Positions 453-30,727 of a DNA stretch of 32,858 bases are shown piece by piece. The DNA is from Thermoanaerobaculia bacterium. Its GTDB lineage: Bacteria > Acidobacteriota > Thermoanaerobaculia > Gp7-AA8. The notes below the pieces were generated by a model, which worked only from the letters and a program-made list of their open reading frames with translations, was not told the origin of the DNA and made no database searches. The stretch is taken from positions 1 through 32,858 of the forward strand of contig JADGNZ010000061.1 in assembly GCA_017883205.1 (NCBI GenBank). The letters run 5' to 3'. A program made the position numbers and the translations under genes. Position 1 is the first letter of the stretch. The number at the start of each line of letters is the position of its first letter.

Positions 453-1238
453 CTAGACTCGCGACCGCTGCGATCTCCCTCCGAACACGTAGCGCGGATA
501 GTCGTCCTTCGCCGCCGCCGCGGCGGACAGGTCGATGTTGACGGTCGCGAAGGGTGCGTCGGGCGTCGTCCGCGCAAGGATGGTTCCGTGCGGATCGATG
601 ATCCATCCGACGCCGCCGCATGCGCCTGTTGGATCGACGCGGTTGGATGACAAGCTGAATGCGCCTGAGCGCACTGCCGCCACCACTCCTATCGACAGCC
701 ACTTCGCCGTCGTGGCGGCGGCTGTCGCGCGAGGGGAGAGGATGACCGGCACGCCGCGCGCGGCGTAGGCGGCGTAGGTCTCGACGGCCCACAGCTCGGT
801 GCAGATGTTGAGGCCGAACGACCACGCGCCGGCGTCGTATTCGGTGAAGTGGGCGTCGCCGCGGTCGAACCAGCGCGCTTCCCAGCCGCCCGGTTCATCC
901 GGCAGGTAGAACTTGCGGCGCAATGGAGCCAGTTCGCCCGAGGCGGACCAGAAAAAGCCTTGGTTGAAGCGCCGGTCGTCGATGGTGATGGGACGTGTTC
1001 CCACGACATGTGCGGCGCGCAATTCGGGGAGGCGGTGGCGCCAGAGATCGCTGCGCGCCTCCGCCGCCGCCCAGCGGGCAGCATCGAAGTGCTCGTCCTC
1101 CCAGAGCGGATCGACCATCGCCAGCTCCGGCAGCAGAACCAGCTCGGACGCGTGTCGCGCCGTGTGCTCGCAGAGTGCGGCCCATGCGGCGGCCAGTGCC
1201 CTCGGCTCGTGCGGCAGTTCACAGACGGTGACACGCAT
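453..1238 (-). CDS. carbon-nitrogen hydrolase (nitrilase superfamily)
   Basis: A 261-residue protein of the nitrilase superfamily, whose members hydrolyse non-peptide C-N bonds (amides, nitriles, carbamoyl groups) in the cytoplasm. The catalytic triad is visible: Glu38 in LLPELAM, Lys109 in RRKFYLPDE and Cys146 in NICTELW. The length and spacing are normal for a single-domain member. The DPHGTILART segment near residues 215-223 is the usual second-to-last strand. The gene starts 17 bases after the stop of the M13-type peptidase on the same strand, so the two probably share a transcript. The substrate cannot be told from sequence; a general amidase or omega-amidase-like role is as likely as any. 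The family call is strong. Confidence 0.88.
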   Translation of the reverse strand: MRVTVCELPHEPRALAAAWAALCEHTARHASELVLLPELAMVDPLWEDEHFDAARWAAAEARSDLWRHRLPELRAAHVVGTRPITIDDRRFNQGFFWSASGELAPLRRKFYLPDEPGGWEARWFDRGDAHFTEYDAGAWSFGLNICTELWAVETYAAYAARGVPVILSPRATAAATTAKWLSIGVVAAVRSGAFSLSSNRVDPTGACGGVGWIIDPHGTILARTTPDAPFATVNIDLSAAAAAKDDYPRYVFGGRSQRSRV

Positions 1239-1255: not shown

Positions 1256-3349
1256 CTACCAGACCCGCACGCGCGCCGCGGGCTCGAGGTAGAGCCGCTG
1301 CCCGGCGCGCACGTCGAACGCCTCGTACCAGGCGTCGAGATTGCGAACCGTGGCGGCGCGGTAGTCCTCGGGCGCGTGATCGTTCGATGCGACCTGCTTC
1401 CGCAGGGCGTCCTCGCTGATCTTGCGTCGTTGGGTCTGCGCGTAGGCGATGAAGAACTCGCGATCCTGCGCTCGCACGTAGTCCTTATCTGTCGCGCGGT
1501 TGCCAAGCGTCTTGTGGAAGGCGTCGAGCGCCGCGGCGAGGCCGCCGAGGTCGGCGATGTTTTCGCGGAGCGTCAGCTTGCCGTTGATCGAAAGGCCAGG
1601 GAGGGGCTGGTACGCCGCGAACTGATCCGCCAGCGGCTGCGTCACCGCCTCGAAGTGCTGCATATCCTCGGCTGTCCACCAGTGGCGCATCCGGTGCTCG
1701 GTGTCGTAGTCGGCGCCGAGGGTGTCGATGTAGTGCGTGAGATCGTGTCCGATGAGTGCACCGACGGAGCCGTAGGCCGCGGCGTCGGATGACGAGTGAT
1801 CGTACTTGGGAGGCTCCAGCAACGCGGCATCCATGACGTACGAGTTCTGCTGGAACACGAGCAGCGCCGCGACCGTCTGCGGCGCGCTGTACCAGTACTT
1901 CAGGTTGACGGGCTGCCCGAGGCGGGCGAGGGCGTTGCGGTAGGCGCGTTCGGAGACGCGTTGCAGGTTCCCAAGCGGATCGCTTGGGTCAACAGTGAGC
2001 GATCCGTAGTCCTCCCATTGATCGGGATAGCCGAGTCCGACGTACAACGTCTTCAACTTCTCCAGCGAGCCGGCTTTGGTGGCGGGCGACATCCACGTGG
2101 CGGCCTCGACCCGCTTGATCAGAGCCGCGCGGACGTTGTCGGAGATTCGCTCCAGGCGCGCCTTCTGCGCGGCGGGGAAGTAGCGCGCGGCGTACATCCG
2201 GCCGAGCGCGTCACTCATGGCCGATTGCGTGGCGGCGAGCGCGCGCTCGGCGCGGGTTGGTTGTGGAGCAGCCCCGGTTGCGGCCTGCATCGCCAGCGCC
2301 TCCTCGGCGAATGCGCGCGGCAGAACGTCCGCGTAATCGTGGATGGCGTGGAAGCGGAGGTAGTCCTTCCAGACCTCCAGCGGCTGCGATGCGACGAGCG
2401 CCGCCAGACCAGTGACCGCGGTCGGTTGCCAGACCACGAGCTCCGGCTGCCGGCCCAGATCCGCCGCATCGAAAAATGACGTCCAGTCCATCCCAGGGGC
2501 GCGCTGCGCGAAATCGGCGCGCGTCCAGACGTTGTCGGCGTTGTGGTCGTTTGACGATGCTTCGGGTGTGCTGTGGCTTTGCGCGATCGCAGTTTCCAGC
2601 GCCAGCACTGCGCTCGCGCGTTCGTCTGTGCGGTCGAAACCGGCGAGCGTGAGCATCTTCGCGATCGATTGGCGATAGCGTTTCCTCTTCGCGGAATCGG
2701 CGCCGAGGTAATCCTCGCGATCCGGCAGTCCAAGTCCTCCCTGCAGCAGGAACGCGACGTTGGTCTTCTCTCCGTGGATGCTCTGCCCGACCGAGAGGCC
2801 GAGGACGCTGGTGGAATCGTAGATACCGAATCCCTCCGGATCGACGTCGGCGCGCATCCCGCGGCCGAGGAGGCGTGTGAGCTGCGCTTTGTCCGAAACG
2901 TTCTCGACGCGATCGAGCAATGGCTTGAGCGACGCGAGACCTCTGGCCTCGATGGCGGCCTCATTCAAATAGGCCGCGCGGAAGTCGGCAACCTTGCGCG
3001 CCGCTGAACCGGCTGGCGCGGAGCTGGCGGCGTCGAGCAGCTCGGCGATGCGGCGGCGGGCCAACGCCTCGAGCTCGTCGCGCGCTCCCCATCGCGGCTT
3101 CCCCGCCGGAAGCGCGGTGGCCTTGAGCCAGGCGCCGTTGGCGTAGGCGAAGAAATCGTCGCCGGGGTTGATGCCCGCGTCGACGGTGCTCTCGAGCGAC
3201 GGGCTCCGGCCGTTCGTCGCTTGTGCGGCGGACGGGGAGGCGGACCACCACGCGAGCGTCGCCGCCATGATGACCGGCAGCGCGACAGCGATCAGATGTC
3301 CTTCGGGACGACGACGAGGAAGCGTGTTGTGGGATGTGTCGAAGTGCAT
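1256..3349 (-). CDS. M13 (neprilysin/PepO-type) metallopeptidase with altered HExxH motif
   Basis: A 697-residue exported protein. I start at the ATG at 3349 because a hydrophobic signal segment (IAVALPVIMAATLAWW, ending ASPSAAQA) follows; an in-frame ATG at 3406 would put an arginine-rich stretch first. The N-terminal DPGDDFFAYANGAWL-type segment (here INPGDDFFAYANGAWL), the ENIADLGGLAAALDAF block (Glu596) and the C-terminal RLYLEPAARVRVW are M13 hallmarks. M13 enzymes are zinc endopeptidases that cleave small peptides outside the cytoplasm. The zinc helix reads GHDLTHYID: both histidines (535 and 539) are kept, but the catalytic Glu is Asp536. The usual NAYY segment is also degenerate (QQNSYVMDAALLEPP). 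It may be a weak enzyme or a binding protein. It is the first gene of a likely two-gene unit with the amidase downstream. Confidence 0.9.
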   Translation of the reverse strand: MHFDTSHNTLPRRRPEGHLIAVALPVIMAATLAWWSASPSAAQATNGRSPSLESTVDAGINPGDDFFAYANGAWLKATALPAGKPRWGARDELEALARRRIAELLDAASSAPAGSAARKVADFRAAYLNEAAIEARGLASLKPLLDRVENVSDKAQLTRLLGRGMRADVDPEGFGIYDSTSVLGLSVGQSIHGEKTNVAFLLQGGLGLPDREDYLGADSAKRKRYRQSIAKMLTLAGFDRTDERASAVLALETAIAQSHSTPEASSNDHNADNVWTRADFAQRAPGMDWTSFFDAADLGRQPELVVWQPTAVTGLAALVASQPLEVWKDYLRFHAIHDYADVLPRAFAEEALAMQAATGAAPQPTRAERALAATQSAMSDALGRMYAARYFPAAQKARLERISDNVRAALIKRVEAATWMSPATKAGSLEKLKTLYVGLGYPDQWEDYGSLTVDPSDPLGNLQRVSERAYRNALARLGQPVNLKYWYSAPQTVAALLVFQQNSYVMDAALLEPPKYDHSSSDAAAYGSVGALIGHDLTHYIDTLGADYDTEHRMRHWWTAEDMQHFEAVTQPLADQFAAYQPLPGLSINGKLTLRENIADLGGLAAALDAFHKTLGNRATDKDYVRAQDREFFIAYAQTQRRKISEDALRKQVASNDHAPEDYRAATVRNLDAWYEAFDVRAGQRLYLEPAARVRVW

Positions 3350-3440
3350 GGGGTGACGGTACTGGCGCCTCGATGATCTGTCGCGGCGCAGGCCGACATC
3401 TTTCATTCACTTTCGGACAATGCAGCAAATCCAAAAGCAA

Positions 3441-3559: not shown

Positions 3560-4609
3560 ATGAACACGCGCGCCCAGCTCATCGACGTCCTCTTCGTCAT
3601 CGTGCCGCACTCGTTGCTGCTCGACATCGCCGGGCCGGCGGAAGCCTTTCGTCTCGCCAACCAGCACCGCGAGCTTCGCGGACTGCCGCCGCGCTTTCGT
3701 CTCAGCTTCGCGGGGCCGGTGGCAACGTTGCCGACGTCGGTCGGACTCGCCCTCGGCGACCTCGTTCCATTGCCGGAGCAGCTCAACACGCCGACCTGGG
3801 TCGTGATCGTCGGCCAACCGACAGCGCACGTAACGAACGTCACGCCGGAGATCGCGGCTACCGCGCAATGGTTGCGCGATCGGCTTCGCGACACGCTCGT
3901 TCGCGCGGACACACCTCATCGTCTGGTGACGATCTGCTCGGGCACGCTGCTCGCCGCGCGCGCGGGGTTGCTCGGCACGCGCCGCTGCACGACGCACCAC
4001 GAGCTGTTGCCGATGCTTCGGACTCTCGCGCCGCGCGCAAAGGTCATCGACAATCGCGTCTTCGTGGTGGACGGTCCACTCGCGTCGAGCGCGGGGATCA
4101 CGGCGGGGATCGACGTCGCGCTGCATCTCATCGCCGAGGAGTGTGGTGAGGCGCTGGCGGCAAGCGTGGCCGAGGATATGGTGGTGTACCTGCGGCGCTC
4201 GCCGCGCGACACCGAGCTGTCGCCGTTTCATATGCACCGCCGCCACCTCCACCCGACCGTGCACCGGGTACAGGACGCGATCGTCTCCGAGCCGCAGCGC
4301 GACTGGGACATGGCCTCGCTGGCCGAGATTGGCCACGCGGCCGAGCGTCACCTGTTGCGGCTGTTCGTCGACCACGCCGGCATCTCGCCGCTGCACTACC
4401 TGCGCTTGATCCGCCTGGAGCGCGCCCGGCAGTCCCTCGAATACGGCGCGACGGTCACGCGTGCCGCCGCCGTAGCCGGCTTCGGTTCCGACGTGCAATT
4501 GCGCCGCGCCTGGAGCCGCCAGTGGGGCGGCTCGCCCCGCGATGCGGCGAGGGCGGCGGGGGCGGGGGCGTCGGCTTCGCGTACAACACGAGCTCGCGTC
4601 AGGCGGTGA
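3560..4609 (+). CDS. GlxA-family transcriptional regulator (DJ-1/PfpI + AraC HTH)
   Basis: A 349-residue two-domain regulator. Residues about 8-200 form a class I glutamine-amidotransferase-like (DJ-1/PfpI) domain with the nucleophile-elbow segment TICSGTLLAARAGLL (Cys126), followed by the TTHHELLP and DGPLASSAGITAGIDVALHLI blocks typical of GlxA proteins. Residues about 235-335 form an AraC/XylS DNA-binding domain with two helix-turn-helix units (MASLAEIGHAAERHLLRLFVDHAGISPLHYL and VTRAAAVAGFGSDVQLRRAW). The family usually binds an amine, amino acid or related ligand and activates nearby catabolic genes. Nothing catabolic is adjacent, so its target is unclear. The tail after about residue 330 is low-complexity Ala/Gly/Arg. 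A weak GAGG sits about 4 bases before the ATG. Confidence 0.9.
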   Translation: MNTRAQLIDVLFVIVPHSLLLDIAGPAEAFRLANQHRELRGLPPRFRLSFAGPVATLPTSVGLALGDLVPLPEQLNTPTWVVIVGQPTAHVTNVTPEIAATAQWLRDRLRDTLVRADTPHRLVTICSGTLLAARAGLLGTRRCTTHHELLPMLRTLAPRAKVIDNRVFVVDGPLASSAGITAGIDVALHLIAEECGEALAASVAEDMVVYLRRSPRDTELSPFHMHRRHLHPTVHRVQDAIVSEPQRDWDMASLAEIGHAAERHLLRLFVDHAGISPLHYLRLIRLERARQSLEYGATVTRAAAVAGFGSDVQLRRAWSRQWGGSPRDAARAAGAGASASRTTRARVRR

Positions 4610-4695: not shown

Positions 4696-7107
4696 TTACG
4701 GCCAGTTCAGCACGATGTCCGGAAACTTGGTTCGTCCGCCGCGGCCGTCGATGACTTCGATCTGCGCGTCGGTCCATTGCGGTATGCCGCGCGGACGCTT
4801 CGGGAAGGTGAGTGTGAATCCGCCGTGCTTGTCTTTCGGGTACCAGGGGTACTTCGCCTGCACGTCGTAACGCACGGTGGGAACCGCGCGATAGCGGTAC
4901 TTGCCATTGTGAAGAATCACGTCGACGGCAGCGACGCCGTTGGGCGAGAGGGCCCAGCCGTTGACGATCATCGGTCCTGTGACAGTCGAGTCGTAGCGTG
5001 GCGAATCGACGACGCCGAATGTGTGATTCATGTATGTCGCCTCGCCTCGCAGCGCTCGCTGCAACTCCAACTCCTCGGTGAAGCCCGCGGCATCGCCCTT
5101 CTCCGGCGGCCGCAGATCGCGCCAGTTCGGGACGTTCGACGTCACGGCGAAGATGTAGTCGCCGCCGCCGCGATGATCGAAACGCCGCACGAAGCCGATG
5201 CGCCCGAGGGCGAGCTCGCGCGTGAGCCAGATGTGCGTCGGCTCGGATGCGCCGCGCAGCCAGTCGTCATGCACGAGCAGGAAGTGGCAATCGTTGTGCG
5301 CCAGCAGCGGCAGGAGCTCGTTCGGGATGACCTTCATGCTAGTCATCCCGGCGATCTTCGTATGCAGCGGCGGCTCGAAGCCGGAGGTCCCGTTCATCAG
5401 CGGCTTGTGATGAATCGTGGCGCCGAATTGATAAAGATACTGCGCGATCCCCTCGGATACCGGCATTTCCAGCGTGCCGCCGGAAAACTTCGTGTCGCGC
5501 ATCCAGACGTAAGCGGGATCGGTGATCTCGAGAGCGTGCTCCCATCGAATGATCGGCAGCACGTCGTGGATGGCCAGTGCGATGAGAAGCACGGCCACCG
5601 ACCAGCGCGCAATCTCCGTCCGGCGCCTGTCGATCCATGCCGCGGCGCCGCACGCACTTGCGCCGGCGAGGCCGACGTAGGCGTCGGTAGCCCATCGCGC
5701 GGGCACGCGCATGCTGCGAAACATCATCAGGTGATCGTAGAGGAAGGTGTGTACGAAGGTGTGCAGTCCGAGCGAGCCGAGCACGCCGAGGACGATCCAG
5801 AGCAGCATCACCCAGATCTCGATCGGCATGCGGGAGCGCGCAGCAGCGGTGCGCAGCGATTGCAGCGTCTCGCCCGACAAGCCCTTCGGTAGTTGGAGCG
5901 AGAGCCGCACGAGAATCATCACAATCAGGATGACGAGCGGTACGTCAGAGGACGCAGGTTTGGATGTGGTGTGGAAGGCGACGATCGTGTGCCCGAAGAG
6001 CCGCCACGCATAGTTCTTCGTCGCCGCGCCGATGTAGGTTCCGATGGCCATCGCCACGATGATGGCGTCGAGAAGATGCAGGAGCCATCGCGGGACCGGA
6101 CGGGCATCGAGCGCGACGGGAAGTTTGCGCCTGTCGATCAGCAACGCGCTGGCGGTGAGGAAGAGCATCATCAGCCCCGGAAAGAGCACCGCCTCGGGGC
6201 GCACATTCGCCGGATCGGCGATGTCTCCATACGCGCGATTCCTGCCGTTCGCGGAGAGCCAGTCGGTCCAGAACGCGGAGCCCCACATCGCGGTGTTGCG
6301 GTCGCGCACCATGCCGTACAGCTCGGAGACTTCCTTGTACGGCAGGAGCACGGGAATCATCAGCGCCGCGGCGAGAATGGTCGCCAGCGCCGCGCCGATC
6401 AGCGTGCGCCATTTGAACCGCGTGGTCAGCAGCGCGAGCAGCGCAATCGATAAGACGATCGCCGTCGTGCCGAACAGGAACTGATGAATGTTCGTCAGCC
6501 CGTTCATCAGCACGCAGAGTCCGAAGAGGATGGCGTTGCGCGTCGTCGGCCGCCGCCAGTAGTGCAGCAACGCGGCGAGCATCATCGGCATCCATCCGCC
6601 CCAGACGAACTGCAGGTGAGCGAGATGGTCGGTGCGGAAGTTGACGAACGAATAGAGGATGCCGGCGACGAGGCCGGCGGGGACGGAGCGTGTCAGCACC
6701 CGCCCGAGGACGTACGCGCCGTAGCCGCAGAAAGCGAAGCCGAGGAGGATGGCGATGTTGTAGACGGCGAGAGGCGTGAAGCCGAGGAGGTAGAACGGGA
6801 GCGCGACGATGGCGATGCCGAAGAGGTTCTCGCTGTACGCCAGCGGGTATTTGCTGGGATAGAAAATGTTGGCGTCGTAGATGTGCGTGGGGGCGTTGGT
6901 GATGCTGTAGAGGTCCCAGTCGAGAATCCAGGTGTTGAGCAAAGGATCGCCGAGGTCGGGGACCGCGGTGTTGAGGTGACTGGCGACGGGCCAGATCAGA
7001 ATGACGGTGAAAAGCAGGAAAAAGCCGAACGCGCCCACCTCGCGAAGCAGGCGGAACCAGAACGGGTGGACGTCGTCCGCGCGATAGCCAAACGGCTCGG
7101 ATGTCAT
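4696..7107 (-). CDS. large polytopic membrane protein, GT-C glycosyltransferase-like
   Basis: An 803-residue integral membrane protein. The chosen ATG at 7107 gives MTSEPFGYRADDVHPFW followed by the first membrane helix (GAFGFFLLFTVILIWPVA). The next loop, with GDPLLNTWILDWDLYSI and IFYPSKYPLAYSENL, is the acidic first periplasmic loop seen in GT-C glycosyltransferase-like proteins. About eleven further hydrophobic segments follow. From about residue 550 the chain is mostly soluble, ending in a beta-rich region (GWALSPNGVAAVDVILHNGKY) that resembles the C-terminal domains of such proteins. GT-C enzymes move sugars from polyprenyl-phosphate donors on the outer face of the membrane. No donor or acceptor can be named and no glycan genes adjoin it, so the function is inferred from architecture. 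There is no Shine-Dalgarno; a -10-like TACTCT lies 8 bases upstream. Confidence 0.75.
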   Translation of the reverse strand: MTSEPFGYRADDVHPFWFRLLREVGAFGFFLLFTVILIWPVASHLNTAVPDLGDPLLNTWILDWDLYSITNAPTHIYDANIFYPSKYPLAYSENLFGIAIVALPFYLLGFTPLAVYNIAILLGFAFCGYGAYVLGRVLTRSVPAGLVAGILYSFVNFRTDHLAHLQFVWGGWMPMMLAALLHYWRRPTTRNAILFGLCVLMNGLTNIHQFLFGTTAIVLSIALLALLTTRFKWRTLIGAALATILAAALMIPVLLPYKEVSELYGMVRDRNTAMWGSAFWTDWLSANGRNRAYGDIADPANVRPEAVLFPGLMMLFLTASALLIDRRKLPVALDARPVPRWLLHLLDAIIVAMAIGTYIGAATKNYAWRLFGHTIVAFHTTSKPASSDVPLVILIVMILVRLSLQLPKGLSGETLQSLRTAAARSRMPIEIWVMLLWIVLGVLGSLGLHTFVHTFLYDHLMMFRSMRVPARWATDAYVGLAGASACGAAAWIDRRRTEIARWSVAVLLIALAIHDVLPIIRWEHALEITDPAYVWMRDTKFSGGTLEMPVSEGIAQYLYQFGATIHHKPLMNGTSGFEPPLHTKIAGMTSMKVIPNELLPLLAHNDCHFLLVHDDWLRGASEPTHIWLTRELALGRIGFVRRFDHRGGGDYIFAVTSNVPNWRDLRPPEKGDAAGFTEELELQRALRGEATYMNHTFGVVDSPRYDSTVTGPMIVNGWALSPNGVAAVDVILHNGKYRYRAVPTVRYDVQAKYPWYPKDKHGGFTLTFPKRPRGIPQWTDAQIEVIDGRGGRTKFPDIVLNWP

Positions 7108-7115
7108 CGGAGGGG

Positions 7116-7121
7116 AGAGTA
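7116..7121 (-). promoter_or_regulatory. -10-like TACTCT before the GT-C-like gene
   Basis: On the minus strand TACTCT ends 8 bases before the ATG at 7107, and the spacer has no Shine-Dalgarno. This spacing fits a leaderless transcript. The call rests on the hexamer only; no clear -35 is seen. Confidence 0.35.
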
Positions 7122-7187
7122 GCAGACGTGTTGCGTTGACGGGACGAAGGTCGCCGCTTTGAAGGTCGAGTTGGGCGAGGTGAAGGT

Positions 7188-7233
7188 CGCCACCGAGCCG
7201 GTGGCGGTACAGCCGTCGAGCCGACGGCGCTAC
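7188..7233 (-). repeat. two-hairpin element, copy 1 (minus orientation)
   Basis: Read on the minus strand, GTA is followed by a stem GCCGTCG-gct-CGACGGC, a short TGTAC linker, then CGCCACCG-gct-CGGTGGCG. Both stems are perfect. It has the same plan as copies 7273-7319 and 24669-24714 but different stem bases, with every change matched on the other arm. It lies head to head with copy 2, 39 bases away. Confidence 0.8.
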
Positions 7234-7272
7234 GCCATTCACGGCGCTGCGCAACGCGTGGCGCGGGCGCTC

Positions 7273-7319
7273 GTAGCGCCGCCGGCCTCGGCGGCTGTAT
7301 CGCCGGCGGCCCGCCGGCG
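7273..7319 (+). repeat. two-hairpin element, copy 2
   Basis: GTA, stem GCCGCCG-gcct-CGGCGGC, linker TGTAT, stem CGCCGGCG-gcc-CGCCGGCG. It is nearly identical to the copy at 24669-24714 (one inserted T and a few substitutions). It ends 28 bases before the CoA-transferase start, so it could lie just upstream of that promoter. Confidence 0.82.
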
Positions 7320-7334
7320 GTTCTGAACGTTTGA

Positions 7335-7340
7335 TATCTT
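7335..7340 (+). promoter_or_regulatory. -10-like TATCTT before the CoA-transferase operon
   Basis: TATCTT is followed by 7 bases and then the ATG at 7348, with no Shine-Dalgarno between. The spacing suits a leaderless first gene. It is supported only by the hexamer and by similar spacing at other genes in the window. Confidence 0.4.
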
Positions 7341-7347
7341 CGCGTCC

Positions 7348-8043
7348 ATGATCAACAAAGTGGTCGCATCCGCAGACGAAGCGGTCCGCGACGTCGCCGA
7401 TGGTGCGACGCTCGTCGTTGGCGGCTTCGGACTCTGCGGCATCCCGGAGAATCTGATCCATGCGCTAGTGAAGCGCGGCGTCAAGGGCTTGACCTGCGTT
7501 TCCAACAACGCCGGCGTCGACGATTGGGGCCTCGGCCTCCTTCTGCAGACGCGCCAGATCCGCAAGATGGTCTCGTCGTACGTCGGCGAGAACGCGGAGT
7601 TCGAGCGCCAGTTCCTCGCTGGCGAGCTGGAAGTGGAGTTCGCGCCGCAAGGAACGCTGGCCGAGCGGATGCGCGCAGGCGGTGCGGGTATCCCCGCCTT
7701 CTTCACGCCCGCTGGCTACGGCACGATCGTGGCCGAGGGAAAGGAGACGCGCGACTTCGAGGGGAGGATGTACGTGATGGAGCGCGGCATCGTCGGCGAC
7801 TTCTCGCTCGTCGCCGCACAGAAGGCGGACCGCCTGGGTAATCTTCAGTATCGAAAGACAGCGCGGAACTTCAATCCGATGGCGGCAACGGCGGGTCGCG
7901 TCTGCATCGCCGAGGTTGAAGAGTTGGTCGAACCCGGAGAGATCGATCCCGATTGCGTCCACACTCCCGGCATCTTTGTGCATCGCGTAGTCGTCGCGAA
8001 GCGTGTCAAACGCATCGAGCAACGCACTGTGCGGAAGGGGTAA
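7348..8043 (+). CDS. scoA: 3-oxoacid CoA-transferase subunit A
   Basis: A 231-residue alpha subunit of a family I CoA-transferase, most like succinyl-CoA:3-oxoacid (acetoacetate) CoA-transferase. The enzyme moves CoA from succinyl-CoA to acetoacetate so ketone bodies and polyhydroxybutyrate products can be used in the cytoplasm. Diagnostic segments are [15 protein letters not shown] (near residues 23-37), [12 protein letters not shown], the [22 protein letters not shown] block (the G-AGIPAF CoA-binding turn) and [19 protein letters not shown]. The subunit has full length and no catalytic Glu, as expected. It is followed after 3 bases by the beta subunit. AtoD-type enzymes for short fatty acids are an alternative, but the segments fit ScoA better. 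Confidence 0.93.
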
Positions 8044-10449: not shown

Positions 10450-11192
10450 GTTGCCGGCGTCTCCTCGGCGGTAATCCGCAGGAACGCTTCCTCGAGCGAG
10501 AGATCGCTGCGGCCTTTGGCGAGCGCGAACTTCAGATTGTCGATCGTGTCGTAGGCGATGCGCGTGCCGTTCCGGATCACGGCCACGGTGTCGCAGAGCT
10601 CCTCGACGAGATGCAGCAGATGTGAGCTGAGGATGACGGACGCACCCGCCTGCGACCGCCGGACGATCGATTCCTTCATGCGCCGGATGCCGAGGGGATC
10701 GAGACCGGTGAGCGGCTCATCGAAGATCAGGACGTCGGGCTCGTGAATGAATCCGCACGCGATCATGAGCTTCTGTTTCATGCCGCGCGAGAGCTCGGCA
10801 GGAAGCGCTTTCCGTTTGTCGGTGAGCTCGAATTCGTTCAGAAGCGGATCCATTTTCTCGCGGACGCCGGTGACCTGATACAGCCGCCCGACGAACTGAA
10901 GGTGCTCTTCGACGGTGAGGTAATCGAAGAGCCGCGGCTCGTCAGGCATGAAGGCGAGATGACGCTTGGCGTCGACCGGATCGTTGCGCAGGTCGAAGCC
11001 GCAGATGCGAATCGTGCCGTCGGATGGCGGATGAATGCCTGCAATCGCGCGGAGCGTAGTCGTCTTCCCCGCGCCGTTCGGTCCAACGAGTCCGAGCACC
11101 TCGCCGCGCTTCACGGCGAAGGAAAGATCCTTCACCGCCACGAGCGAGTCGTAACGCTTGGTGAGCCCGGAGACCTCGATGCCGTAGTCCAT
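10446..11192 (-). CDS. ABC transporter ATP-binding protein (exporter type)
   Basis: A 248-residue ATPase. Walker A is GPNGAGKTT (37-45), the signature is LSRGMKQKL (134-142), Walker B is VLIFDEP (154-160) with the D-loop LTGLDPLG, and the switch His lies in LSSHLLH. The Q-loop position reads FMPDEPRLFDYLT (81-93) with no Gln, which is common in EcsA-like exporter ATPases. It powers the permease encoded immediately downstream with a 4-base overlap. The export direction is inferred from family resemblance, and no substrate can be read from the sequence. Confidence 0.92.
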   Translation of the reverse strand: MDYGIEVSGLTKRYDSLVAVKDLSFAVKRGEVLGLVGPNGAGKTTTLRAIAGIHPPSDGTIRICGFDLRNDPVDAKRHLAFMPDEPRLFDYLTVEEHLQFVGRLYQVTGVREKMDPLLNEFELTDKRKALPAELSRGMKQKLMIACGFIHEPDVLIFDEPLTGLDPLGIRRMKESIVRRSQAGASVILSSHLLHLVEELCDTVAVIRNGTRIAYDTIDNLKFALAKGRSDLSLEEAFLRITAEETPAT

Positions 11193-18458: not shown

Positions 18459-18644
18459 ATGTCCGACGAACACACCCGCCACATTCCGAGCGAACGAACA
18501 GGCCGGCATGTCTGCGTTCGCTGCCTCTCGGCGGTTGAGCTCGAAGAGTATCTGCGCAACGATCACCTCTGCGACGACTGCGCGGCGGACGGCGACTATC
18601 CGCTGGCATCGACGCCGGAGCCGCGAACGAAGGATGAAGGATGA
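18459..18644 (+). CDS. small zinc-ribbon-like protein
   Basis: A 61-residue protein with two CxxC pairs: Cys19/Cys22 (HVCVRCLSAVE) and Cys38/Cys41 (HLCDDCAADG). This is a typical zinc-ribbon spacing. The middle is acidic and helical. The ATG at 18459 follows a run without other starts. The last six codons and the stop come from the AAGGATG heptamer array that continues to the glycosyltransferase start 10 bases later. Its function is unknown; small zinc ribbons often bind nucleic acid or a partner protein. It may be co-transcribed with the EPS genes. Confidence 0.6.
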   Translation: MSDEHTRHIPSERTGRHVCVRCLSAVELEEYLRNDHLCDDCAADGDYPLASTPEPRTKDEG

Positions 18645-18710
18645 AGGCGGAAGGATGAATGCAGATTTGGATGCATCGTCCGTTTCGCATCCTCCATCCT
18701 TCGGGCGCGT
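18630..18710. repeat. AAGGATG heptamer array spanning two genes
   Basis: aaggatg-type words with period 7 (18630-18660) are followed by complementary catcctt/catcctc words (18690-18706). The array supplies the stop of the zinc-ribbon gene and the ATG and first codons of the glycosyltransferase. Confidence 0.72.
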
Positions 18711-19866
18711 CGCCGTCATCCACGACTGGCTGACCGGCATGCGGGGCGGCGAGAACGTCCTGGAAGCCATTCTCGATCTCTTCCCGGACGCGGAGCTGTT
18801 CACGCTTTTTCATTTTCCCGGCACGGTCTCTTCTTCGATCGAGTCGCACACGATCCACACCTCGCGGCTGCAAGCGCTGGCTTCGCGCGTTAGCGATTAC
18901 CGCACGCTCCTTCCGCTCTTTCCGCGCGCCGTGCGGCAGTGGGATCTATCGAAATTCGATCTCATCATCAGCTCCAGCCACGCTGTCGCCAAAGGCGTCG
19001 ACAGCCGCGGTAAGGCGCACCTCTGCTACTGCCACACGCCGATGCGCTACGTCTGGGACCGCTTCGATGACTACTTTCCGCGCGGCGTGAAGCGGCTTCT
19101 GGCGCGTCCGCTTGCGGCACGTCTGCGCCGGTGGGATGTAGCCAACTCGAAGTACGTCACGCGATTCGTCGCCAACTCGCATTTCGTGTGCGAGCGTATT
19201 CGCGAGTACTACGGCCGCGACGCTGCGGTCGTGCATCCATTCGTCGACGAAGCATTCCTTTCCGCGCCTCTGCGCGAATCACGCGATGATTTTCACGTCG
19301 TGCTCTCCGCGCTCGTTCCCTACAAGCGGGTCGAGCTGGCGATCGAAGCCGCCGAGGCCAGTGGGAGAAGGCTCGTCGTCATCGGCGGCGGTCCGCTCCT
19401 CCCGAAGCTTCGCCGGCGAAGCGGCCCCAACGTTCAGCTCCTCGGACCCGTATCCAGAGAGGTGATCATCGACCACCTCGGCCGCGCGCAGAGCCTCATC
19501 CTTCCCGGTGTCGAAGACTTCGGCATCACTCCATTGGAAGCGATGGCCCTCGGCACGCCGGTCGTCGCCCTCGGCGCAGGCGGCGTGCGCGACTCGGTTA
19601 TGCCCGGAACGACCGGGATCTTTTTCGAGACCGCATCGGTAGACTCGCTTCGCGGAGCCTTGAGCGAGGCGGAGCGTCACGGTTGGAACCGTGCGGCCAT
19701 CCGCGCCCACGCGGCGACCTTCTCGCGTGAACGGTTTCAGCGTGAGATGCTCGCGGAGTTGGAACAAGTCGCAGGAACGGGAGTCGGGAGTCGGGAGTCG
19801 GAGCGCGCGAGTAACTCTGTCTCCGACTCCCGAACCCCGACCCCCGACTCCCGGAATTCACCGTGA
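18655..19866 (+). CDS. GT4-family glycosyltransferase (exopolysaccharide)
   Basis: A 403-residue GT-B retaining glycosyltransferase that moves a sugar from a nucleotide-sugar to a lipid-linked glycan at the cytoplasmic face. Residues 17-40 carry the start motif GRVAVIHDWLTGMRGGENVLEAI. Then come HLCYCHTPMRYVWDRFDDYFP and, in the C-terminal half, EDFGITPLEAMALGTPVVALG with the E-x7-E pair that binds the nucleotide. The ATG at 18655 is the only in-frame ATG before the motif. The first sixteen residues and last thirty (GTGVGSRESERASNSVSDSR and onward) are encoded by heptamer repeats. Its stop overlaps the GTG of the sugar-phosphate transferase by 4 bases, so the two form one unit. Confidence 0.92.
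   Translation: MNADLDASSVSHPPSFGRVAVIHDWLTGMRGGENVLEAILDLFPDAELFTLFHFPGTVSSSIESHTIHTSRLQALASRVSDYRTLLPLFPRAVRQWDLSKFDLIISSSHAVAKGVDSRGKAHLCYCHTPMRYVWDRFDDYFPRGVKRLLARPLAARLRRWDVANSKYVTRFVANSHFVCERIREYYGRDAAVVHPFVDEAFLSAPLRESRDDFHVVLSALVPYKRVELAIEAAEASGRRLVVIGGGPLLPKLRRRSGPNVQLLGPVSREVIIDHLGRAQSLILPGVEDFGITPLEAMALGTPVVALGAGGVRDSVMPGTTGIFFETASVDSLRGALSEAERHGWNRAAIRAHAATFSRERFQREMLAELEQVAGTGVGSRESERASNSVSDSRTPTPDSRNSP
19781..19856. repeat. GGGAGTC heptamer array and its inverted partner, inside a gene
   Basis: gggagtc words with period 7 (19781-19800) are followed by complementary ccgactc/ccgaccc words (19822-19856). The whole array is translated as the C-terminus of the glycosyltransferase. 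Confidence 0.85.
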
Positions 19867-21269
19867 TCGAGAAAAAACACCGGACGCTTTCGTCGATCTA
19901 TCTGATCAACGACGCCCTGGCGTCGAACCTGGCCATGCTCTGCGCCTGGTTTCTCCGCTTCAGCGTCAAGATCATTCCGGTCACGAAAGGGCAGCAGGAA
20001 GTGGAGACCTATCTCCAGCTCCTGCCGATCGTCACGATCGTTTTTCCGCTCGCCTTCGCCGTGCAGGGGCTGTATCGCATCCGGCCGGCGCGATCGAAGA
20101 CTGAAGAGTGGCTCTCGGTGACGATCGGATCGATCGTGGCTACGGTCGTCTTCTCCGGCGTGCTGCTCTGGGTGCGGCCGGGAAGGCCGGACGTTCTCTA
20201 CTCGCGGGCCACGCTGCTGATCTTCCTCCTCTGCGCCATCGTGCTGGTGATTCTCGGCCGCGGCATCGTGCGGGCGGTGGTCGAGCGCGGTTACCGGACG
20301 GGCAAGCGACTCGACCGCGTGCTCATCGCCGGCAGCGGCGAGCTGGCCCGCGCGGTCGTCGAGCGCGTGAACGGGCATCGCGAGCTCGGCTTCACACTGG
20401 TCGGTTACCTTCGCAACGGCGAGCAGTCGGCCCTGGAAGGTCTGGAGTGTCTCGGCACGATCGATGACGCCGAACGTGTCATCGACGAGCGGAAGATCGA
20501 TCACGTCTTCGTCGCGCTGCCGCATGCGTCATCCGACGCGATGATGGCGCTGCTGGATCGACTGGTGCGGAGCGTGGTCGCCATCCACGTCGTGCCGGAC
20601 CTTCTGCAGTTCATGGTTCTCCGCTCGCGCGTCGAGGACCTCGACGGGCTGCCGACAATCAACCTCTCCGAGACGCCGCTCGAAGGCTGGAGCCGCTTTC
20701 TGAAACGCGGCTTCGATCTCGTCGTGGCGCTCACTGCGTTCATCGTCTTCTCGCCGGTCATGCTGATCGTGGCCATCATCATCAAGCTCGAGGATCGCGG
20801 GCCGGTGTTCTACCGGCAGGAACGGATGGGGCTCGACGGCAAGCCGTTCGATATTTTCAAGTTCCGCTCGATGCGCGTCGGCGCCGAGAACGAGAGCGGC
20901 GCGAAGTGGGCGGAGAAAGACGATCCGCGCCGCACGCGCGTCGGCCGCTTCATCCGCAAGACATCCATCGACGAGTTACCGCAACTCCTCAACGTGCTCC
21001 TCGGCGACATGAGCGTCGTCGGCCCGCGCCCGGAGCGGCCGCAGTTCGTCGAGCAGTTCCGCGCCGAGTTCCCGCACTACATGCTCCGCCACAAAGTGCG
21101 CGCCGGCATGACCGGATGGGCGCAGGTCCACGGATGGCGGGGCAACACATCGATCCGCATCCGCATCGAGCACGACCTCTACTACATCGAGAACTGGTCG
21201 CTCATGCTCGACCTGAAGATCCTGTTCATGACGCTGGTGCATGGGTTGAAGCATGAGAATGCGTATTGA
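19863..21269 (+). CDS. polyprenyl-phosphate sugar-phosphate transferase (WcaJ/PglC-like)
   Basis: A 468-residue membrane enzyme that attaches the first sugar-phosphate to undecaprenyl phosphate to start exopolysaccharide repeat synthesis. The N-terminal half has four or five membrane helices (residues about 15-135), then a nucleotide-binding-like region (RVLIAGSGELARAVVERVNGH, about 155-175, and DHVFVALPHASSD). The C-terminal catalytic domain is the bacterial sugar transferase type: KRGFDLVVALTAFIVFSPVM helix-break-helix, GPVFYRQERMGLDGKPFDIFKFRSM, DELPQLLNVLLGDMSVVGPRPE and GMTGWAQVHGWRG. The GTG start overlaps the preceding glycosyltransferase stop (GTGA). No polymerase or flippase is in the window, so the full EPS locus must extend elsewhere. 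Confidence 0.94.
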   Translation: MIEKKHRTLSSIYLINDALASNLAMLCAWFLRFSVKIIPVTKGQQEVETYLQLLPIVTIVFPLAFAVQGLYRIRPARSKTEEWLSVTIGSIVATVVFSGVLLWVRPGRPDVLYSRATLLIFLLCAIVLVILGRGIVRAVVERGYRTGKRLDRVLIAGSGELARAVVERVNGHRELGFTLVGYLRNGEQSALEGLECLGTIDDAERVIDERKIDHVFVALPHASSDAMMALLDRLVRSVVAIHVVPDLLQFMVLRSRVEDLDGLPTINLSETPLEGWSRFLKRGFDLVVALTAFIVFSPVMLIVAIIIKLEDRGPVFYRQERMGLDGKPFDIFKFRSMRVGAENESGAKWAEKDDPRRTRVGRFIRKTSIDELPQLLNVLLGDMSVVGPRPERPQFVEQFRAEFPHYMLRHKVRAGMTGWAQVHGWRGNTSIRIRIEHDLYYIENWSLMLDLKILFMTLVHGLKHENAY

Positions 21270-23637: not shown

Positions 23638-24617
23638 CGATTCCTCCGCAGGAGCGAGAGGAAAAACGGGACGCCGAGTACGGCGGTGAACGCGCCGATG
23701 GGGAGCTCGGACGAGGTGACGACGACGCGCGAGAGGAGATCGGCAAGCACGACCAGCACGCCGCCGCCGAGTGCGCAGAGCGGCAGGAGAAAGCGGAAGT
23801 CGCGCCGCCACATCATGCGGATGAGATGCGGCACGAGCAGTCCGACGAAGCCGATGATGCCGCTGACCGATACCGCGGCGCCGGTGACGATCGACGCGGT
23901 GATGAAGCCGATCAGCTTCACGCGCTCGACGTTGACGCCACGCGATTTCGCGTCGTCCTCGCCGAATGCCAGCATGCGTAGATCGTTTCCGATCGCGGCA
24001 AGCGTAGCCATGGCGATCACGAGCAGCACGGCTAGCAGCGCTACATCGCTCCACGTCGCGCCGAAGAGCGTTCCCATCATCCAACGAAGCGCCGCAGTCA
24101 GATCGCTTTGCCGCGACAGGCCGAATGAGATCAGGATGACCGCGGAAAAGAACGCGTTGAGGACGAGGCCGGAGAGAAGAAGGCGCGTAGGGTCGGTGTA
24201 CTCGCGCCGCCGCGCCAGCAGGAAGACCGCTCCGGTTGCGCCGCACGCGCCGGCGAACGCGATGAGCGGCACGACGCCGGGCAGTCTCGACAAACCCGCG
24301 GCCGTGGCGATCGATGCGCCGCATGCAGCGCCGCCGGAGACGCCGAGGATGAACGGATCGGCCAGCGGATTGCGAAGCAAGGACTGGAACGTGACGCCTG
24401 CCACCGCCAGCGTCGCTCCGACGAGTGCCGCCAGTAGCGCACGCGGAAGGCGGATGCCGATGAGGATCGAGCGCGCAGTGACGTCGCCCGCGAGCGCCGC
24501 GCGCCACGACACGTTCGTCGCGCCGATTGATGAGGCGAGCACGAGCGCGATGACGAGCAGAAGCGCGAGCATCGCAAACGCTCCGGCAAGACTCGATCGA
24601 TGACGAACAGCGGCCAC
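23634..24617 (-). CDS. FecCD/BtuC-type permease
   Basis: A 327-residue permease of the iron-siderophore/B12 importer family with about ten membrane helices. Hallmarks are IRLPRALLAALVGATLAVAGVTFQSLLRNPLADPFILGVSGGAACGA in the N-terminal half and GIIGFVGLLVPHLIRMMWRRDFRFLLPLCALGGGVLVVLADLLSR near the C-terminus, plus ELPIGAFTAVLGVPFFLSLLRR. The start is a GTG at 24617, which gives normal length; the frame upstream is intergenic. It overlaps the ATPase gene. No substrate-binding protein is encoded next to the pair, so the third part must lie elsewhere or be shared. Confidence 0.93.
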   Translation of the reverse strand: MAAVRHRSSLAGAFAMLALLLVIALVLASSIGATNVSWRAALAGDVTARSILIGIRLPRALLAALVGATLAVAGVTFQSLLRNPLADPFILGVSGGAACGASIATAAGLSRLPGVVPLIAFAGACGATGAVFLLARRREYTDPTRLLLSGLVLNAFFSAVILISFGLSRQSDLTAALRWMMGTLFGATWSDVALLAVLLVIAMATLAAIGNDLRMLAFGEDDAKSRGVNVERVKLIGFITASIVTGAAVSVSGIIGFVGLLVPHLIRMMWRRDFRFLLPLCALGGGVLVVLADLLSRVVVTSSELPIGAFTAVLGVPFFLSLLRRNR

Positions 24618-24668
24618 GTTGCGCAGTGTAGTAGCACGGAGCGCCGCCGCGAACGACGTGGCCAAAGC

Positions 24669-24714
24669 GTAGCGCCGCCGGCCCGGCGGCTGTCCCGCCG
24701 GCGGCTCGCCGGCG
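24669..24714 (+). repeat. two-hairpin element, copy 3
   Basis: GTA, stem GCCGCCGG-c-CCGGCGGC, linker TGTCC, stem CGCCGGCG-gct-CGCCGGCG. It differs from the copy at 7273-7319 by one base deletion and a few substitutions. It lies between the divergent permease and DUF1800 genes. Confidence 0.85.
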
Positions 24715-24782
24715 ACTCTCAACTCGCACATCCAGATCCCTGCTTCCGTAAACACACCCCCACCTCCCCCGTCCAACCCTCC

Positions 24783-26465
24783 ATGAACCCCTTCACGAAA
24801 ATCCTGGTCGGCGCCCTCGGACTGGCGCTCCTGACCGGTGCAAGCACTCCCAATCCCAAACTCACCGAGCGCCAGCGTGCGATGCATGTCCTCAACCGTC
24901 TCGCTTTTGGGCCGCGGCCCGGCGATGTCGACGCGGTCGCGAAAAGCGGCGTCGATGCCTGGATCGAGCAGCAGCTTCATCCGGAAGCGATTCCTGATCG
25001 CGCGGTTGAAGCGCGCATCGCGCTGCTGCCGACGATGACGTTGTCGAACGCGCAGATCGTGAAGACTTACTACGAGCCGGTCCTGATGGCGCGAAAAAAA
25101 GCGAATGCCGAGGCGAAGGATGGCGACGTCGACAAAAAGGACATTCGACGGGAGTTGATGCAGGACATCCCTCCCGGTCAGCGGCCGCAGGTCGTGATGA
25201 ACGATCTTCTTTCGCAGCGGATCCTTCGCGCCGCCGAGTCGGACCGGCAGCTCAATGAGGTGATGGTCGACTTCTGGATGAATCACTTCAACGTCTTTTC
25301 CGGCAAGGGTATCGACCGCTTTCTGCTGACCAGCTACGAGCGCGACGTCATCCGGCCGCACATGTGGGGGCGTTTCGAAGACCTGCTGATGGCGACCGCG
25401 AAGTCGCCGGCGATGTTGTTCTATCTCGACAACGCGCGCTCGATCGCGGCGCCGGAGAATCGTCCTCTCTTTTCGCAGCGCGCGACGTTCGGGGCCAGAC
25501 GCTTCGGACGGATGGATGCGATGCCGCGGCTGCAAGCGAACCAACAGAAGGGCGGCCTCAACGAGAACTACGCCCGCGAGATCATGGAGCTTCACACCCT
25601 CGGCGTCGATGGCGGCTACACGCAGAAGGACGTGACGGAGCTTGCGCGCGTGCTGACCGGATGGACGATCACGCGTGAGCGCGACGGCGGCGGCGAAGGC
25701 GCGGCGTTCATCTTCCGTCCGTTCCTTCACGATGCCGGCTCCAAGGTCGTGCTGGGAGTCCGCTTCCCGGCAGGCGGCGGCATCCAGGAAGGCGAGAAGA
25801 TGATTCAGATCCTCGCGCACCATCCCGCCACCGCCCACCACATCGCATACAAGCTCTGCCAGCGGCTGGTTGCCGACGAGCCACCGCCGGCGCTGGTCAA
25901 TCGCGTGGCTGCGAAGTTCCTGGCCACCGGCGGCGACCTTCGCCAGACAGTGAAGGCGGTCATCAGCAGTCCCGAATTCTGGTCTCAAGAGTCGTATCGA
26001 TCCAAGGTGAAGTCGCCGTTCGAATACACGATCTCGGCCGTGCGCGCGGTCAACGGGAAGATCACCGACGTCACTCCGATCGCGCGTGCATTGCAGCAAA
26101 TCGGCGAGCCGCTTTACGGCGCGCAGCCGCCGACCGGATACAGCGACAAGGCCGACGTCTGGATCAACACCGGCGCGCTGATGAACCGGCTCAACTTCGC
26201 GCTGGCGCTGGCGGCGAACAAGCTGCCGGGCGTGCAGAGCGACATCGTTTCGCTCATTCCGTCGGCCGAGGCGTCGGATGCATCGCGTTCGGTCGAAGCA
26301 CTGGCGCTGGCGCTGACCGGTGGAAATCTAACCGAAGAGACAAGAAGCACCATCAAATCGCGGATCGTCGAGCGGAAAGCGCCGGCGCAAAATCCGTGGG
26401 ACAACACGCAACTACCGACGGTCGCAGGTCTGATCCTCGGATCGCCGGAGTTTCAGAGGCAGTAA
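24783..26465 (+). CDS. DUF1800-family exported protein
   Basis: A 560-residue protein of the DUF1800 family, whose function is unknown. The ATG at 24783 is followed by a signal segment (TKILVGALGLALLTGAS). Family marks are HVLNRLAFGPRPGDVDAV (about residues 36-53), VDFWMNHFNVFSGKGIDRFLL, the central GGLNENYAREIMELHTLGVDGGYTQKDVTELARVLTGWTI and the C-terminal PTGYSDKADVWINTGALMNRLNFALAL. It is followed after 57 bases by a DUF1501 gene, the standard partner. The pair is common in Planctomycetes, Acidobacteriota and Bacteroidetes and is presumed to work together outside the cytoplasm. Confidence 0.95.
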   Translation: MNPFTKILVGALGLALLTGASTPNPKLTERQRAMHVLNRLAFGPRPGDVDAVAKSGVDAWIEQQLHPEAIPDRAVEARIALLPTMTLSNAQIVKTYYEPVLMARKKANAEAKDGDVDKKDIRRELMQDIPPGQRPQVVMNDLLSQRILRAAESDRQLNEVMVDFWMNHFNVFSGKGIDRFLLTSYERDVIRPHMWGRFEDLLMATAKSPAMLFYLDNARSIAAPENRPLFSQRATFGARRFGRMDAMPRLQANQQKGGLNENYAREIMELHTLGVDGGYTQKDVTELARVLTGWTITRERDGGGEGAAFIFRPFLHDAGSKVVLGVRFPAGGGIQEGEKMIQILAHHPATAHHIAYKLCQRLVADEPPPALVNRVAAKFLATGGDLRQTVKAVISSPEFWSQESYRSKVKSPFEYTISAVRAVNGKITDVTPIARALQQIGEPLYGAQPPTGYSDKADVWINTGALMNRLNFALALAANKLPGVQSDIVSLIPSAEASDASRSVEALALALTGGNLTEETRSTIKSRIVERKAPAQNPWDNTQLPTVAGLILGSPEFQRQ

Positions 26466-26522
26466 CGCGGTGAGCGCGGTCTCGAGCGAAACCTCGAGAT
26501 ACTGCGACCGCGAGGAGACCCT

Positions 26523-27755
26523 ATGATCGACAGACGCATTTTCCTGAAATCCTCCGGCCTCGCCCTTGTCGGCGGGAGCCTGTTGCCGAACGTCTTCGTG
26601 AAGATGGCGAAGGCATCGACGACGAAAGGGAGCAAAACGCTCGTCGCGATTTTTCAGCGCGGCGCGGTCGATGGACTGAACGTCATCGTGCCGTACGGCG
26701 AGCAGGCCTACTACGCGGCCCGTCCGACGATTGCCGTGCCGCGGCCGGGCGCCGAGGGCGGAGCGATCGACCTCGACGGATTCTTCGGACTTCATCCGTC
26801 GCTAGCGTCGCTGACGCCGCACTTCAAAGATCACAGCGCCGCATTCGTTCACGCCGTCGGCTCGCCCGATGCCACGCGCTCGCATTTCGACGCGCAGGAC
26901 TTCATGGAGTCGGGCACGCCGGGCGTGAAGTCGACCGAGGATGGATTCCTCTCGCGTGCGGTCGGCTTGAAGAAGGAGCCCAAAGCCTCGCCGTTGCGCG
27001 CGGTTGCGCTCTCGCCTGCATTGCCGCGCATCCTCTCCGGTGCTGCCGGCGCGGTGGCGATGACGAACCTCGGGCAGTTCGGAATCCGCGGCGGTGCGAA
27101 CGTCAGCGGCGGATTCGAATCGATGTATTCCGAGGCGGTGGCAGGCGCGCTCGGAGGAACGGCGAAGGAGTCGTTCGATGCCGCACGCATCCTCAAGAGC
27201 GCCGATCCGCAGAAACTCCAGCCAGAGAATGGCGCCATCTATCCGGCTGGCCCGCTCGCCAACTCGTTGCGCCAGATCGCGCAGTTGATCAAATCCAACG
27301 TTGGTCTCGAAGTAGCGTTTGCCGACGTGAGCGGATGGGACACGCACGCCGGCGAGGGTGGTGCGCAAGGGCAGCTCGCCAACAACCTGCGCACCTTCTC
27401 CGATGCCATTGCCGCCTTCACGCGCGACCTCGGATCACGCATGGGTGACGTCGTCCTCGTGACCATGTCCGAGTTCGGCCGCACGGTCCGCGAGAACGGT
27501 AATCGCGGCACCGACCACGGCCACGCCAACGTCATGCTGATCCTGGGCGGCGGCGTCAAAGGCGGCAAGGTCTATGGCAAGTGGCCGGGCCTGGCATCGC
27601 AGCAGCTCTACGAGAACCGCGACCTCGCCATCACCACCGATTTCCGCGACATCTTCGCCGAACTGCTGACGAAGCAGATGGCGGTGCCGTCGCTGAAGAG
27701 CGTGTTCCCGGGGTACGACGCATCGCCGTCGAAGTGGCGGGGCATTCTGGCGTAG
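26523..27755 (+). CDS. DUF1501-family protein with Tat signal
   Basis: A 410-residue protein of the DUF1501 family, placed in the alkaline-phosphatase-like superfamily. The N-terminus MIDRRIFLKSSGLALVGGSL is a clear twin-arginine signal (RRIFLK), so it is exported folded, possibly with a metal. Conserved blocks are QRGAVDGLNVIVPYG, the GWDTHAGEGG segment and the C-terminal SEFGRTVRENGNRGTDHGHANVM with its HxH pair, expected to bind metal. GAGGAG sits 5 bases before the ATG. It is the partner of the upstream DUF1800 gene. Its reaction and substrate are unknown. Confidence 0.95.
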   Translation: MIDRRIFLKSSGLALVGGSLLPNVFVKMAKASTTKGSKTLVAIFQRGAVDGLNVIVPYGEQAYYAARPTIAVPRPGAEGGAIDLDGFFGLHPSLASLTPHFKDHSAAFVHAVGSPDATRSHFDAQDFMESGTPGVKSTEDGFLSRAVGLKKEPKASPLRAVALSPALPRILSGAAGAVAMTNLGQFGIRGGANVSGGFESMYSEAVAGALGGTAKESFDAARILKSADPQKLQPENGAIYPAGPLANSLRQIAQLIKSNVGLEVAFADVSGWDTHAGEGGAQGQLANNLRTFSDAIAAFTRDLGSRMGDVVLVTMSEFGRTVRENGNRGTDHGHANVMLILGGGVKGGKVYGKWPGLASQQLYENRDLAITTDFRDIFAELLTKQMAVPSLKSVFPGYDASPSKWRGILA

Positions 27756-29201: not shown

Positions 29202-29216
29202 GCTTGGGCGCGGCCC

Positions 29217-29341
29217 TAGCGGGCCGCGCGTTGTCAGTTGTCGGTTGTCGGTTGTCGACAAGTTTCGCAAGGTTGCGTATTCGCGAATCTGACAACGCGC
29301 GAAGCGCAACCAACCGACAACCGACAACGCGCGAAGCGCAA
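29217..29341. repeat. GTTGTCG heptamer array and its inverted partner
   Basis: Four gttgtca/gttgtcg heptamers (29229-29256) are followed about 50 bases later by caaccga words (29310-29330). A second direct repeat, caacgcgcgaagcgcaa, occurs twice (29296-29312 and 29326-29342). The whole lies in the 140-base gap of the M16 pair. Confidence 0.85.
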
Positions 29342-30694: not shown

Positions 30695-30701
30695 GGCGGC
30701 A

Positions 30702-30707
30702 ATCCTA
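30702..30707 (-). promoter_or_regulatory. -10-like TAGGAT before the M16 operon
   Basis: TAGGAT on the minus strand ends 7 bases before the ATG at 30694. It shares a 33-base divergent gap with the possible promoter of the methyltransferase. No Shine-Dalgarno is seen. Confidence 0.35.
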
Positions 30708-30712
30708 CACGC

Positions 30713-30718
30713 TAGAGT
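30713..30718 (+). promoter_or_regulatory. -10-like TAGAGT before the methyltransferase gene
   Basis: TAGAGT ends 9 bases before the ATG at 30728 with no Shine-Dalgarno. The two divergent -10 candidates lie within 17 bases, so the polymerases could interfere with each other. Confidence 0.35.
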
Positions 30719-30727
30719 GCTGGCTGC

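Follow-up and report, generated by a model that had tools for sequence, protein, structure and literature searches.

The window analyzed here, a 32,858-nucleotide stretch of a Thermoanaerobaculia genome, carries an M13-family metallopeptidase homologue whose zinc helix holds Asp in place of the usual general-base Glu, together with a divergent regulator and a CN_hydrolase-family gene. The features are as follows:

453–1238, minus strand: CN_hydrolase-family protein (Pfam PF00795, 3.7e-22), 17 bases downstream of the M13 gene
1256–3349, minus strand: homologue of M13-family metallopeptidases carrying HDxxH, its N-terminus resembling a signal peptide (called ORF, 1256–3406)
1541–1564, minus strand: ENIADLGG segment with the third zinc ligand E615 and D619, read from the sequence and from conservation in the tree rows
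1733–1747, minus strand: HDLTH zinc helix, residues 554–558 (H554, D555, H558), Asp replacing the general-base Glu
1859–1870, minus strand: altered NAYY segment, AALL, residues 513–516, with Ala at the place of neprilysin Asn542
3375–3422, minus strand: conserved operator-like element between the divergent genes, with two half-sites at a distance of 21 bp and an additional inverted copy
3560–4609, plus strand: divergent regulator with DJ-1/PfpI and AraC-type HTH_18 domains (Pfam)

Elsewhere in the window, an adjacent pair of M16 peptidase genes on the minus strand, one without HxxEH (27828–29345) and one with HLFEH (29342–31096), resembles an inactive/active subunit pair. A glycosyltransferase and a WcaJ-type undecaprenyl-phosphate glucose phosphotransferase (18508–21269, plus strand) suggest an exopolysaccharide locus, and a DUF1800 and DUF1501 gene pair lies at 24600–27755 (plus strand). 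The large protein encoded at 4696–7461 (minus strand) contains stretches that look like membrane segments and matches no Pfam family at E 0.001; by eye, its first ~110 residues look like a wrongly extended start.

The window protein is a member of the M13 (neprilysin) family by homology, as established by two Pfam domains and a whole-length fold. The minus-strand ORF at 1256–3406 (716 codons) matches PF05649 (3e-91; 307.1 bits against a cut-off of 32) and PF01431 (3.4e-43; 148.1 bits against a cut-off of 24.5). Its AlphaFold2 model, built from an alignment of 52 sequences with a mean pLDDT of 95.0, superimposes on Tannerella PepO (9eyg) with Z 46.3 and 2.7 Å across 637 residues, an M13 fold over the whole length. 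Other solved matches were Porphyromonas PepO, human ECE-1, neprilysin and Zmp1. An HExxH sister (L041) was modeled with a pLDDT of 94.9. Translation probably begins at the ATG at 3349 (residue 20) rather than at the first ATG of the called ORF, because the operator-like site at 3375–3422 covers that first ATG and because the frame of the nearest relative is interrupted by a stop in the residues upstream. The open frame of this relative matches the window protein only from residue 18 on, and the hydrophobic, signal-peptide-like stretch in the sequence comes after the ATG at 3349. Residue numbers below are counted from the first ATG.

The zinc-helix region of the ORF reads GALIGHDLTHYID, with HDLTH where HExxH and its Glu general base would be expected. 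An earlier note on this DNA had recognized the HDLTH motif correctly but placed it at 1743–1757, ten bases from its true location at 1733–1747; counted on the sequence, the former interval covers mostly LIGHD. The sequence comparison confirms the same note's view that both zinc histidines and a distal Glu596 are retained: all three zinc ligands, H554, H558 and E615, are present, the last being E596 when counted from the start at 3349. The substrate-orienting NAYY/NAFY motif is replaced by AALL, within a region reading QTVAALL, and this change is subfamily-wide. The hydrophobic residues of the S1' pocket have also been exchanged (F106 to R109, F563 to K534 and W693 to Q659). Neprilysin numbers were set on the alignment columns of the window protein by what we take to be the right correspondence.

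Relatives were obtained from a scan of genome contigs (best 80 of 276 confirmed loci) and from searches of genome samples. After rows with identical ends were dropped, 156 distinct M13 rows covered the motif; having been collected for their similarity to the window protein, they do not form a census of M13. Within the subfamily, for which we required Lys or Arg at 534 together with a residue other than Asn at 513, 13 of 26 rows carry HDxxH and 13 carry HExxH, whereas HExxH is found in all 130 rows outside it (Asp 0/130). In the rows departing from HExxH, the residue at the general-base place is Asp in 13/13, never Gln, Asn or Ala, encoded by GAC in 11 and GAT in 2. The Thermoanaerobaculia genome itself carries seven M13 genes, and the other six are HExxH. 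Subfamily rows occur in at least 2/347 genomes of the window's own phylum, 3/19 of its order, 10/346 of the phylum of L038 (titled Gemmatimonadaceae), 3/399 of the order of L043 (titled Rhodoferax, where a fourth match, L161, is without the signature), 3/236 of the class of L041 (titled Opitutus) and 1/246 of the order of L053 (titled Steroidobacter). These counts are lower bounds owing to strict cut-offs and to the scoring of mostly 2–4 candidates per genome, and the four titles are those of metagenome bins.

To place the Asp rows, a tree of 41 rows was built without the Asp column, comprising 24 subfamily rows and 17 named as outgroup; L008, L142, L143, L144, L146, L147, L148 and L149 were left out as second fetches of one gene. 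All 17 outgroup rows are HExxH, and Asp is therefore derived. The fewest Asp/Glu changes on the tree number two, one for a side holding 12 HDxxH rows and one for L145, which stands among HExxH rows; support for the side of 12 is weak (58/99), and the group was defined when the states were already known. Descent of all 13 Asp rows from one origin is disfavored (AU test, p 0.026). As to whether HDxxH homologues form a clade, a check suggested earlier, 12 of the 13 rows do so with weak support, and L145 falls outside. Close homologues with HExxH had been named as evidence that would count against the original reading; the result is mixed, as the nearest three relatives (67–79% identity) are HDxxH, while those at 54–64% are of both kinds. 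Two of the rows named as outgroup, L162 and L163, have the pocket signature, and on the tree they cluster with L044, a subfamily row. The genome G376 holds both L145 (HD) and L039 (HE). The presence of both copies in one genome, with at least two changes on the tree, speaks for a near-neutral replacement, in which Asp and Glu would be interchangeable in a rebuilt site without consequence. We consider this very improbable, given that Asp is absent from all 130 rows outside the subfamily and that 12 of 13 Asp rows fall on one side of a branch, albeit a weakly supported one.

Residue changes at the substrate site fall into those shared by the whole subfamily and those limited to Asp rows. The Asn542 place is Gly, Ala or Ser in 24/24 subfamily tree rows. 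The earlier note had read the NAYY alteration as part of one consistent change; a consistent change is borne out in that the Asp is common to related genes, but NAYY as a companion of the Asp was rejected, since all 11 HExxH subfamily tree rows are altered too. Similarly, the place of Phe106 (109) is Arg in 23/24 subfamily tree rows (Gly in L145) and that of Phe563 (534) is Lys in 23/24 (Arg in L040), giving a charged S1' pocket common to the whole subfamily, HExxH members included. The Trp693 place behaves differently. Trp is kept in 11/11 HExxH subfamily rows and 17/17 outgroup rows, whereas in the main HDxxH group 8 of the 11 rows that have a letter at this place show Gln, Leu, Tyr or Phe instead; Trp is retained in L145. 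Within the subfamily tree rows this loss is limited to Asp rows, and Trp693 is also absent in 3/129 rows outside the subfamily. The places of residues 524 and 526 are more variable in the Asp group as well. The changes of the Asp group are weakly clustered in the pocket (3/25 pocket columns vs 16/631, p 0.03, with hand-chosen pocket columns). Replacement of Trp693 in the main HDxxH group could reflect relaxed constraint, which counts against the working enzyme favored below. The neprilysin pocket is listed as Phe106, Ile558, Phe563, Met579, Val580 and Trp693 in PMC11997989, and M13 S1' subsites are described as keeping a hydrophobic character in PMC2259306.

Despite this variability, the catalytic framework is strictly kept. 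H554, H558, E615 and the second-shell D561 are invariant in 13/13 HDxxH rows, and D619, H677 and R683 in the 12 complete ones, the remaining row (L158) being cut by a contig end. These 12 complete rows have a mean identity of 62% and only 170 of 657 columns invariant. Across the tree, E615 is kept in 41/41 rows and D619 in all 40 with a letter there. Six pairs drawn from the four closest HDxxH rows gave dN/dS of 0.14–0.20, at synonymous distances of 0.68–1.62 that in part approach saturation; two more HDxxH pairs gave 0.20 and 0.19, and one HExxH pair 0.22. A sequencing error or a decaying pseudogene was rejected, as the same Asp recurs in 13 genomes, the frames are open through the domain and dN/dS among close relatives is 0.14–0.20. 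Beyond the truncated L158 row nothing was found in favor of this explanation, and we regard it as extremely improbable.

The M13 gene appears to belong to a cassette, which was surveyed at 24 loci, one per subfamily row of the tree set. Several of these loci end near the M13 gene, so cassette absences are not firm; L162 and L163, subfamily members by signature, lie outside the survey. A relative of the regulator, which we take to be GlxA-like, is found near the M13 gene at 18 of the 23 other loci with 67–93% identity to that of the window, making 19/24 in all (HDxxH 12/13, HExxH 7/11); at L174 it is found on the opposite flank of the M13 gene. Relatives of the CN hydrolase (61–80% identity) adjoin the M13 gene at 10 of the 23 other loci, or 11/24 overall (HDxxH 7/13, HExxH 4/11), and its Glu, Lys and Cys, presumably the catalytic motif, are kept in 11/11. 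Past the cassette, neighboring genes differ between genomes (10 proteins at 7 loci looked at).

The operator-like element, an intergenic stretch of ~44 bp, is present at 20/24 loci (HDxxH 12/13, HExxH 8/11). It accompanies the regulator at 19/19 loci and occurs at one of the five loci without it, namely L039, in whose genome the regulator neighbors L145. The co-occurrence is significant (Fisher p 0.0005), although the pattern was derived from regulator loci and the test leans that way. A sequence-only site model was built from 21 sites, which score high by construction. In the window's own genome it gave one strong match (E 5.9e-10, the next at 0.17), 150 out of 3370 candidates having been scored. 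At the same depth of 150 candidates per genome, strong sites occurred in 3/19 genomes, only those with the cassette, and the 16 relatives without the cassette held no strong copy (best 0.05). Two sites were observed at L164 (9097–9144 and 9756–9803). The rearranged L174 locus likewise has two (7494–7536 and 10633–10673), of which one precedes the M13 gene and the other the regulator; a second L174 site, outside the model, scored 1.2e-6. Of the G376 paralogues L039 (HE) and L145/L179 (HD), both have the operator-like site, and on the contigs available the regulator was found only beside the HD copy. From this co-occurrence and conservation we infer that the regulator may bind the site and thereby control the M13 gene.

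Taken together, these observations are best explained by a maintained zinc hydrolase that uses Asp as its base, acts on substrates acidic at P1' and belongs to a regulator-controlled cassette, a reading to which we give about an even chance. The M13-fold protein would be exported, bind zinc and be active, with Asp555 activating the water in place of the usual Glu. The S1' pocket of the subfamily has been rebuilt from hydrophobic to basic through Arg109 and Lys534, and the substrate-positioning Asn542 has been lost. Given this basic pocket and the absence of Asn542, the probable substrates would be peptides of small size, or amides resembling peptides, that carry an acidic group at P1'. The divergent AraC-type regulator would control the M13 gene via the conserved site in front of it, which would serve as an operator, and the neighboring CN hydrolase would probably act on the same nitrogen source within the cell. 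A bolder extension, which we hold only tentatively, is that this is a natural gluzincin lineage working with Asp by means of a rebuilt site, on an acidic and perhaps non-peptide amide, from a dedicated inducible cassette.

Another possibility is a changed chemistry. The protein would then be a zinc hydrolase whose substrate is a non-peptide or activated amide, an ester or a carbamoyl-type compound that a shorter base is enough to attack, and it would feed the CN hydrolase. The loss of the peptide-orienting Asn542 and the gain of an S1' Arg and Lys across the whole subfamily would fit such a substrate, as would similarities below cut-off: a weak one of the CN hydrolase to carbamoyl-amidase families and model matches of the regulator that include the choline-metabolism regulator GbdR. 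However, the substrate-contact His and Arg of neprilysin (H711, R717) are kept in 12/12 complete HDxxH rows, and no CN hydrolase turned up at 13 of the 23 other loci, contig ends truncating some of these. We view this alternative as rather unlikely.

What speaks most strongly for a working hydrolase is that the same position behind the same site is taken by HD and HE members alike. What speaks most strongly against it is that a Glu-to-Asp replacement killed rat aminopeptidase B, an M1-family enzyme in which this residue has the same role: E326D retained 0% activity (PMC2241622). In the M13 peptidase PepS, Glu-to-Asp at a zinc ligand, another residue, abolishes activity (PMC4701951), which likewise counts against, suggesting that the site tolerates little. 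The aminopeptidase B result also favors a pseudopeptidase, whose Asp form would bind zinc and an acidic peptide, hardly cleave it and serve the cassette by binding or sensing peptides. A human neprilysin E584D mutant has been crystallised (PDB 6sh1), animal M13 pseudopeptidases are known (PMC2259306 and PMC11266112), and the greater variability of the Trp693 place and residues 524 and 526 in the Asp group points the same way. Nevertheless, rat Kell and Gone early, as described in those two sources respectively, have also lost at least one zinc ligand, whereas here the ligands are invariant, a carboxylate is kept at the general-base place in 13/13 rows and HExxH members occupy the same cassette. 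We consider the pseudopeptidase reading unlikely, if still a serious contender. A peptide binder, as the earlier note had proposed, is possible, and a working enzyme appears preferable because the metal ligands, the second shell, the substrate His/Arg, purifying selection and the cassette shared with HExxH members are all retained.

As a rule, the HExxH Glu is regarded as irreplaceable. The Asp form looks like a maintained natural variant, which tests how far the catalytic Glu can change. Asp genes beside HExxH sisters in the same cassette offer natural pairs for asking what role side-chain length plays and whether the rebuilt pocket compensates for the Asp. The regulator and its operator-like site could lead to the inducer of the subfamily. 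Moreover, a subfamily with a charged S1' pocket goes against the hydrophobic tendency of M13 S1' stated in PMC2259306.

Our literature search, of partial coverage, brought up no M13 HDxxH enzyme; among the matches listed, none named HDxxH in a peptidase and nothing relevant concerned M13 peptidases of the phyla involved. An HDxxH metal motif as in the window protein, in the form HDxxH-x10-13-E, occurs in COQ4 proteins of coenzyme Q biosynthesis, compared here by motif only; in the structure of a homologue, the Asp itself ligands a magnesium ion (an extract of PMC9774615).

Human neprilysin E584D (PDB 6sh1) shares the fold of the window model (Z 38.5, rmsd 5.2, 638 aligned). It carries the same replacement, engineered into an enzyme with a hydrophobic S1' pocket, whereas in the window protein the replacement is natural and the pocket rebuilt. 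The crystal is reportedly that of a trapping mutant, and the literature search, of partial coverage, found no paper on neprilysin E584D or 6SH2. TfPepO (9eyg), PgPepO (9fma, 9kn2) and Zmp1 (3zuk) resemble the window protein in fold and length (Z 46.3, 42.6–43.0 and 38.9) and match it in sequence at E 4e-100 to 4e-89. The zinc ligands, second shell and substrate His are common to all of them; in the sequence alignments the three known proteins show HExxH and NAYY, with Phe at the position of Lys534, in contrast to HDxxH, AALL and an S1' Arg/Lys in the window protein. Its HExxH sisters (e.g., L041, L053, L152 and L159) are closer still, with 55–62% identity and the same pocket signature, and differ from it in their Glu general base and in the Trp693 that all 11 of their rows keep.
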